Positions 34,153-35,929 of a stretch of DNA of 64,000 bases are shown one piece after another. Both the position numbers and the translations under genes were made by a program. The notes beneath the pieces were generated by a model. It did no database searches. It was given only the letters and a program-made list of their open reading frames with translations, and was not told the origin of the DNA. Within the stretch, counting starts at the first letter, position 1. The number at the start of each line of letters is the position of its first letter. The stretch comes from Spirochaetaceae bacterium (GTDB lineage: Bacteria; Spirochaetota; Spirochaetia; Treponematales; Treponemataceae). The DNA lies in NCBI GenBank assembly GCA_017614995.1, contig JAGAAX010000003.1, positions 1-64,000 on the forward strand, read 5' to 3'.

Positions 34153-35334
34153 TTATTTTACAGCTTTCTTCAATGCGTCAAGCTTGTCGAGCTTTTCCCA
34201 TGAGAATTCGTTTCTGCCAAAGTGGCCGTAAGCTGCTGTTGCCTGATAAACAGGTTTCTTCAAGTCGAGTGTCTTGATGATTCCGGCCGGTGAGCAGTCG
34301 AAAACCTCTTTGATTGCTTTTGAGAGAGATTCTTCGCTTACTGTGCCTGTTCCGAATGTATCAACCATGATTGAAACAGGATAAGGAACACCGATAGCAT
34401 AAGCAAGCTGAACTTCGCATCGTTCGGCAAAACCGGCGGCAACAACATGCTTTGCGATGTAGCGTGCCATGTATGCAGCAGAGCGGTCAACTTTAGACGG
34501 GTCTTTGCCAGAGAAAGCGCCGCCGCCGTGGCGTCCCATTCCGCCGTAAGTATCAACGATGATTTTGCGTCCTGTAAGACCAGTGTCGCCAAAAGGACCG
34601 CCTACAACAAAACGTCCTGTCGGGTTAATGTAGAATTTTGTGTTTTTGTCGATTAAGCCTGTCGGTTCTAGAACAGGAAGAATAATCTTGTTGATTACAG
34701 TCTCTTTGATTTCGCCGTATTCAACTTCAGGGTTGTGCTGGTGCGAAATAACAACGGTGTCGATTCTCTTAGGCTTGTTGCCTTCGTATTCGATTGTTAC
34801 CTGGCTTTTTGCGTCCGGTCTGAGCCAGCCGATTGTGCCGCCTTTGCGCAAGTCTGTAGCTTTGTGCAGAAGCTTGTGTGCATACATGATTGGAGCCGGC
34901 ATCAGTTCTGGTGTTTCAGAACAGGCAAAACCGAACATCATGCCCTGGTCGCCTGCGCCCTGCTGACCTTCAAATTCTTTAAGACCTGTACCAACAACAC
35001 CCTGGTTAATATCCGGTGACTGTGAGTGAATCATGTTGAGAACAGCCATAGAGTCGCAGTCAAGACCAAAATCAGAGTCTGTGTAGCCAATCTGGCGTGC
35101 AACGTTGCGTGCCAAAGTCTGTACATCAACATAAGTGTTTGTTGTAATTTCGCCGCCAACCATTACAAGTGCTGTAGAAGCAAATGTTTCGCAAGCAACG
35201 TGGCTTTCCGGGTCGTCTTTAAGACAAGCGTCAAGAATAGCATCAGAAATCTGATCACAGAGTTTATCAGGGTGACCTTCACCAACTGATTCAGATGTAA
35301 AAAGGTAATGTTTGTTAGATAAGACAGAACTCAT
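34153..35334 (-). CDS. metK: S-adenosylmethionine synthetase
   Basis: The 393-residue enzyme makes SAM from methionine and ATP. Motifs are [21 protein letters not shown] at the N-terminus, [12 protein letters not shown] (ATP loop) near 126, and [19 protein letters not shown] near 266. AGGAGG precedes ATG 35334. The 5' leader carries a SAM-II-type riboswitch whose 3' arm lies beside the ribosome site, so end-product repression is expected. It belongs with metA and metY in this window. Confidence 0.97.
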
Positions 35335-35341
35335 TTAAGAG

Positions 35342-35412
35342 CCTCCTATTTAGCAAGTTTAAGCTCCGCTATGGGAACTTTTTCCGCCTGCAATTTGGAT
35401 AAATCAGCGGAT
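35342..35412 (-). promoter_or_regulatory. SAM-II-type riboswitch upstream of metK
   Basis: On the minus strand the leader contains CCGCTGATTTATCC, ATTGCAGGCGG and, further on, TTGCTAAATAGGAGG. These match the SAM-II core (CGCTGATTTA, ATTGCA-AGCG, GCTAAA) in order. P1 is TCCGC/GCGGA. An inserted 7-bp hairpin (35361-35380) separates P1 from the 3' GCTAAA arm. That insert contains a second AGCGGA able to pair with the 5' P1 strand. The ribosome site AGGAGG directly follows GCTAAA, so SAM binding should block translation. Confidence 0.85.
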
Positions 35413-35427
35413 AGATAAGTTAATGCG

Positions 35428-35456
35428 ATTATAGAAGATTCATATATTTAAAACAA
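35428..35456 (-). promoter_or_regulatory. metK promoter
   Basis: On the minus strand, TTGTTT and TATAAT are separated by 17 bp. Transcription would begin near 35421 and give a leader of about 87 nt that fully contains the riboswitch. Confidence 0.75.
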
Positions 35457-35620: not shown

Positions 35621-35929
35621 ATGGCTTTATACAAGAATTACTTAAAAACTCAAAAGAAATGTAAGGTAACATTTGAGTTGAGCGCAGAAGCAGCCAATGG
35701 CGCAGAGAAAGTTTGGCTTGCTGGAGATTTTAATAGTTGGAGCAGCCTTGATACTCCTATGAAAAAGAACAAGGACGGAAGCTTTACTGTCACATTGACA
35801 TTAGAAGCTGGAAACGAATATCAGTTCCGTTATTTGCTTGACGGCAAAAAATGGGAAAATGACTGGAATGCAGACAAATACATTCCGGCACCATTTTCTA
35901 ACACAGATAACTCTGTAGTTATTGTCTAA
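35621..35929 (+). CDS. Stand-alone CBM48/AMPK-like glycogen-binding domain
   Basis: A 102-residue protein made of one beta-sandwich of the CBM48/AMPK-beta type: VTFEL, KVWLAGDFNSWS, PMKKNKDGSFTVTLTLEAGNEYQFRYLLDGKKWENDW, ADKYIPAPFSNTDNSVV. The two Trp and the Lys of the glucan-binding face are present. There is no enzyme domain and no signal, so it probably binds intracellular glycogen or alpha-glucan, or regulates its enzymes. No glycogen genes are adjacent. Confidence 0.88.
   Translation: MALYKNYLKTQKKCKVTFELSAEAANGAEKVWLAGDFNSWSSLDTPMKKNKDGSFTVTLTLEAGNEYQFRYLLDGKKWENDWNADKYIPAPFSNTDNSVVIV

Follow-up and report, generated by a model that had tools for sequence, protein, structure and literature searches.

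SAM-II riboswitches have been described from Proteobacteria, Bacteroidetes and marine samples, and riboswitches have been called rare in spirochetes (PMC2258182). A crystal structure with bound SAM exists for the metX type of SAM-II, which is described as translational and has a P2a of 2 bp (PMC6061858). Here we analyse a spirochaete element that carries the same core upstream of metK, in a 64,000-nt stretch of contig JAGAAX010000003.1 (positions 1–64,000 of the forward strand) that we refer to as the window.

The metK leader and its comparative support

A complete SAM-II-type pseudoknot occupies positions 35342–35413 of the minus strand; 7 nt separate the end of this 72-nt RNA from the start codon of metK. 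The SAM-II core blocks, predicted to lie in order below a promoter with a 17-bp spacer, are all present in the sequence on this strand, as the following features of the window show.

35428–35456, minus strand: putative promoter, with a 17-nt spacer between the -35-like TTGTTT and the -10 TATAAT
35456–35451, minus strand: -35-like TTGTTT, weak (3 of 6 positions of TTGACA)
35433–35428, minus strand: -10 TATAAT, perfect
35406–35411, minus strand: P1 5′ strand UCCGCU, pairing with 35383–35388
35405–35389, minus strand: segment between the P1 strands, GAUUUAUCCAAAUUGCA, read in the sequence
35400–35405, minus strand: GAUUUA, putative third strand of the SAM-binding triplex, a role assigned from SAM-II and SAM-V (PMC6061858)
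35397–35399, minus strand: P2a 5′ strand UCC, complementary to GGA within the Shine-Dalgarno sequence
35390–35393, minus strand: P2 pseudoknot 5′ strand UUGC, at least 90% conserved and the same in metX-type SAM-II
35383–35388, minus strand: P1 3′ strand GGCGGA, pairing with UCCGCU
35361–35380, minus strand: P3, an inserted 7-bp hairpin of AAGUUCC (35380–35374), loop CAUAGC and GGAGCUU (35367–35361)
35365–35370, minus strand: second AGCGGA, the proposed competitor, considered either a chance occurrence or limited to close relatives
35354–35342, minus strand: 3′ end block GCUAAAUAGGAGG, from the GCUAAA arm through the Shine-Dalgarno sequence
35349–35354, minus strand: P2 pseudoknot 3′ strand GCUAAA, invariant in 31 aligned members
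35342–35347, minus strand: Shine-Dalgarno AGGAGG, overlapping the P2a 3′ strand GGA (35346–35344)
34153–35334, minus strand: metK, S-adenosylmethionine synthetase, the predicted regulated gene (393 aa, ATG at 35334)

Read along the minus strand, the leader runs UCCGCU-GAUUUAUCC-AAA-UUGCA-GGCGGA, continues through the hairpin AAGUUCC-CAUAGC-GGAGCUU into AAACUU-GCUAAAU-AGGAGG and, after 7 nt, reaches the metK AUG. The MetK protein carries all three S-AdoMet_synt Pfam domains (PF00438, PF02772 and PF02773). The transcript would start about 10 nt upstream of P1, and -10-like sites with at least five of six matches occur upstream of 65 of 77 elements, compared with about 41 expected from shuffles. 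No intrinsic terminator was found downstream of the aptamer, and there is no room for one. On the plus strand, a divergent gene (35621–35929) codes for a protein of 102 aa with a stand-alone glycogen-binding domain (CBM48/AMPK1_CBM).

Trained on 13 other treponeme genomes but not on the window, a covariance model scores the element at 62.4 bits (E = 2.2 × 10−12 in 331 kb), and a search of the element's own genome with this model returns it as the sole match (E = 2.1 × 10−11). Minimum-free-energy folding of the window sequence alone is unremarkable (z = −0.92); folding energy by itself is not significant, and the case for the element rests on comparative evidence. The presence of the element is confirmed as real and beyond chance.

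Covariation was assessed in 75 distinct aligned members, using an alignment that is fitted to the structure and so favours it; fixed-sequence anchors flank both sides, and rebuilt hairpins are already seen among members of the genus alone. Five of the six P1 pairs change on both sides (97.5% of cells paired), as do all six modelled P3 pairs (93.9%). For P1 and P3 combined, 95.8% of cells are paired compared with 72% after shuffling, and both-side changes occur in 11 of 12 pairs. The combined covariation score is 0.666 (shuffled, 0.227; slid controls, 0.076–0.155), a value reached by none of 500 shuffles. The P2/P2a pseudoknot lies beyond the reach of covariation because its bases are nearly invariant; the CC of the P2a 5′ strand is invariant in 31 aligned members. 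GAUUUA hardly varies across the aligned members and is identical in the metX-type SAM-II of Pelagibacter and SAR86. A natural P2a variant, with CUC/GAG replacing UCC/GGA, occurs at three loci (L107–L109).

Distribution and gene context

A simple core pattern is present in 5 of 8 genomes from the genus and in 108 of 274 from the family. The covariance model matches 140 of the 274 family genomes (a handful weakly) and 47 of 393 genomes in a sample spanning the phylum. About half of the family genomes have no model match, a figure that includes some incomplete genomes and comes from large searches with strict filters. Nearly all members that were read precede metK, with the start codon 7–11 nt past the core AGG at the metK loci that were read; among the first 35 pattern loci, 33 lie directly before MetK, the exceptions being one in front of another gene (L016) and one chance match (L042). 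Reading of distant matches confirmed 12 members in three other families (L073–L084), of which six precede metK, four ahcY and one an AAA ATPase gene, with one context unclear. We rejected four pattern matches without P1 as chance (L042, L128, L158 and L187), as well as four weak model matches (L085, L086, L088 and L089). The leaders of 17 MetK genes, taken from genomes with no match or a weak one, contain no such element. These include G005, a genome of the same genus, in which an intact metK (L232) has a different leader and the MetK protein is sister to the clade of the window. Convincing elements also precede genes for small proteins without a Pfam match at three loci (L016, L087 and L091); the products at L016 and L087 are cysteine-rich and zinc-ribbon-like.

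A literature search with partial coverage for SAM-II in spirochaetes or Treponema found nothing relevant. The original prediction had called a spirochaete version unusual, which holds for Rfam and for the literature searched, but the element is common in treponemes. A metK switch in about half of the genomes of the treponeme family, missed by all three relevant Rfam models, extends the SAM-II class to another phylum.

It is almost certainly wrong to regard the element as a chance resemblance, or as a protein-binding leader that has no ligand: the missing Rfam match at the window and the modest folding energy would fit such a reading, but the match to an independently built model, the wide conservation with covariation and the constant gene context all argue against it. 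The proposal of a SAM-II-type aptamer before metK draws support from the identity of its core, the pseudoknot, the gene context and its conservation.

The four ahcY-associated elements (L074, L076, L079 and L081), all from other families of the order, precede a short leader reading frame of 18–35 aa. These frames begin with GTG or TTG at Shine-Dalgarno distance and stop close to the ahcY start, on it or beyond it (TAGTATG in L079). This arrangement suggests that ahcY is translationally coupled to the switch through the leader reading frame. A leader with the SAM-II fold that binds a ligand other than SAM, such as SAH or another derivative, could account for the placement of some members before ahcY and for the differing ahcY-type cores (UUUGAACC and CAGCUAAA). 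We consider it very unlikely, as the metK members hardly differ in their core from SAM-binding metX SAM-II, and SAM riboswitches are classically found in control of metK (PMC2864571). SAM sensing fits the gene context, which is metK plus ahcY at four loci.

At L107–L109, a sigma-70 region 2 gene is preceded by a variant element (AACTCTACTTGC..GCTAAAAGGAG) with a short reading frame. Immediately in front of the gene stands an identical 35-nt block, TATAGCACCTACTTAGCAGCCATAAAAAATAAAGG, which occurs in 4 of 274 family genomes, is pseudoknot-like and has no Rfam match. The element or the block may be part of a mobile element.

The inserted hairpin and the proposed mode of control

The inserted hairpin, put forward as an extra element of the window, is real and supported by covariation, but it is optional, and a P3 at the same place is known from SAM-V (PMC6061858). 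About ten family members lack it (their matches span only 48–54 nt and are hairpin-less where read), as do several members of other families, whereas longer versions occur in L100–L103 and two hairpins in L077. On a MetK tree the P3 state switches several times; the tree is quick and its length label rough (L041 and L043 are mislabelled as long), which precludes finer claims. P3 is an optional, variable peripheral hairpin in the position of the SAM-V P3. The natural series with no, normal or long P3 makes its role directly testable.

The original prediction also assigned the hairpin a switching function, in which its AGCGGA pairs with the P1 5′ strand UCCGCU, so that a SAM-II aptamer carries an added alternative fold competing with P1. 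In the window itself the complement amounts to 6–7 bp (shuffle P = 0.02). However, only 3 of 74 relatives have at least six complementary bases, a pair of them (the window and L105) being nearly identical, and the median shuffle P across relatives is 0.77. At −12.3 kcal/mol against −18.6 kcal/mol, the competing fold falls 6.3 kcal/mol short of the normal one, a relative in the same genus (L010) keeps the hairpin but has rebuilt it with other bases and lost AGCGGA, and hairpin-less relatives exist. We therefore set this reading aside as highly improbable.

The reading that we favour, with a probability of about 0.9, is that the element works as a riboswitch of the SAM-II type (H-type pseudoknot) and switches metK OFF at translation, with SAM as the inferred ligand. 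P1 and P3 would fold with or without ligand. When SAM is plentiful, it would bind in a triplex that GAUUUA and the P2 pseudoknot (UUGC/GCUAAA) form together. If metX SAM-II and SAM-V are a guide, bound SAM would stabilise P2/P2a and hide the metK ribosome-binding site; when SAM is low, the 3′ strand would be free and metK translated. Control would have to act at translation, given the location of the Shine-Dalgarno sequence inside the pseudoknot strand and the distance of only 7 nt to the AUG, and SAM-dependent occlusion of the ribosome-binding site is the most likely mechanism. P3 probably belongs to the strand running across the minor groove of P1, as a peripheral part and not as a competing switch helix.

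Comparison with known SAM riboswitch classes

Scans with Rfam models covered the window and 12 to 16 relatives. The Rfam SAM-II and SAM-V models, a significant hit to which the original prediction had named as support, give no match at the window element, even at E = 10. RF01826 and RF01726 match none of the elements tested, and the weak RF00521, RF01726 and RF01826 matches seen in these genomes fall at places other than the elements. RF00521 matches six spirochaete members without the hairpin over their full length and precisely at the element, with 17–24.5 bits (its threshold is 36), a result independent of our own selection of loci; the listed E value of 0.1 refers to 4227 families and corresponds to about 2 × 10−5 for one family. 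No member tested reaches the gathering score of any Rfam model. Applied to two Pelagibacter metX-type elements (L113 and L117), RF00521 yields 27.8 bits for one and leaves the other unreported. A score below the RF00521 threshold is weak evidence against membership, because metX-type elements of Pelagibacter are also under-scored or missed, and Rfam under-detects translational metX-type SAM-II.

The spirochaete elements contain the SAM-II feature set in order (P1, then GAUUUA..CC..UUGC, and GCUAAA downstream) and are placed before genes of methionine and SAM metabolism (metK and ahcY). Pelagibacteraceae and SAR86 share this core, which stands there mainly in front of metX-like genes and also of other sulfur genes. 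The treponeme model finds nine of these elements with E values of 3 × 10−9 to 9 × 10−5, which are partly circular, as the loci were picked by a pattern containing the core.

The metX subtype of SAM-II (RF00521, SAM_alpha; Pelagibacter and Sargasso Sea metX) shares with the spirochaete element the P1 length, the GAUUUAnCC..UUGC core, the GCUAAAnAGG strand, the short P2a and the translational arrangement (PMC6061858). The spirochaete element differs in its hosts, in preceding metK or ahcY and not metX, in its optional P3, in the full AGGAGG Shine-Dalgarno sequence held by the aptamer end and in scoring below the RF00521 threshold. SAM-II is stated to be without P3 (PMC6061858), whereas the window and most relatives have one and others do not. 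SAM-V (RF01826) likewise forms an H-type pseudoknot with a P3 between P1 and P2, a P2a over the Shine-Dalgarno sequence and a translational OFF model (PMC6061858), but its P3 is general and of 3 bp, whereas the spirochaete P3 is optional and of about 7 bp.

Calling the element SAM-V, on the grounds that it would be translational and has a P3 as well as a short P2a that overlaps the Shine-Dalgarno sequence, seems unlikely to be the better choice. The P3 and the Shine-Dalgarno overlap are indeed SAM-V traits (PMC6061858); however, P1 has 6–7 bp (6 in the window) and not 4, RF01826 is blind to the spirochaete element, hairpin-less members match RF00521 instead, and the core spacing agrees with metX-type SAM-II. 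The SAM-II variant with long loops (RF01726), from Bacteroidetes and marine samples (PMC2864571), is a further relative, but its model gives no match at the spirochaete elements. The SAM/SAH riboswitch also precedes metK and is a small pseudoknot (PMC2864571, PMC7367207); RF01727 is restricted to Rhodobacterales, and no Rfam model matches the spirochaete element. Judged by sequence, the element belongs to the known class SAM-II/SAM-V as a new variant in a new lineage, and would bind SAM. A bolder view, which we hold only tentatively and think doubtful, is that the spirochaete elements are a separate branch bridging SAM-II (in the core) and SAM-V (in P3 and the Shine-Dalgarno overlap), which in some families may have turned to ahcY by way of a short, coupled leader frame and may have changed its ligand preference.
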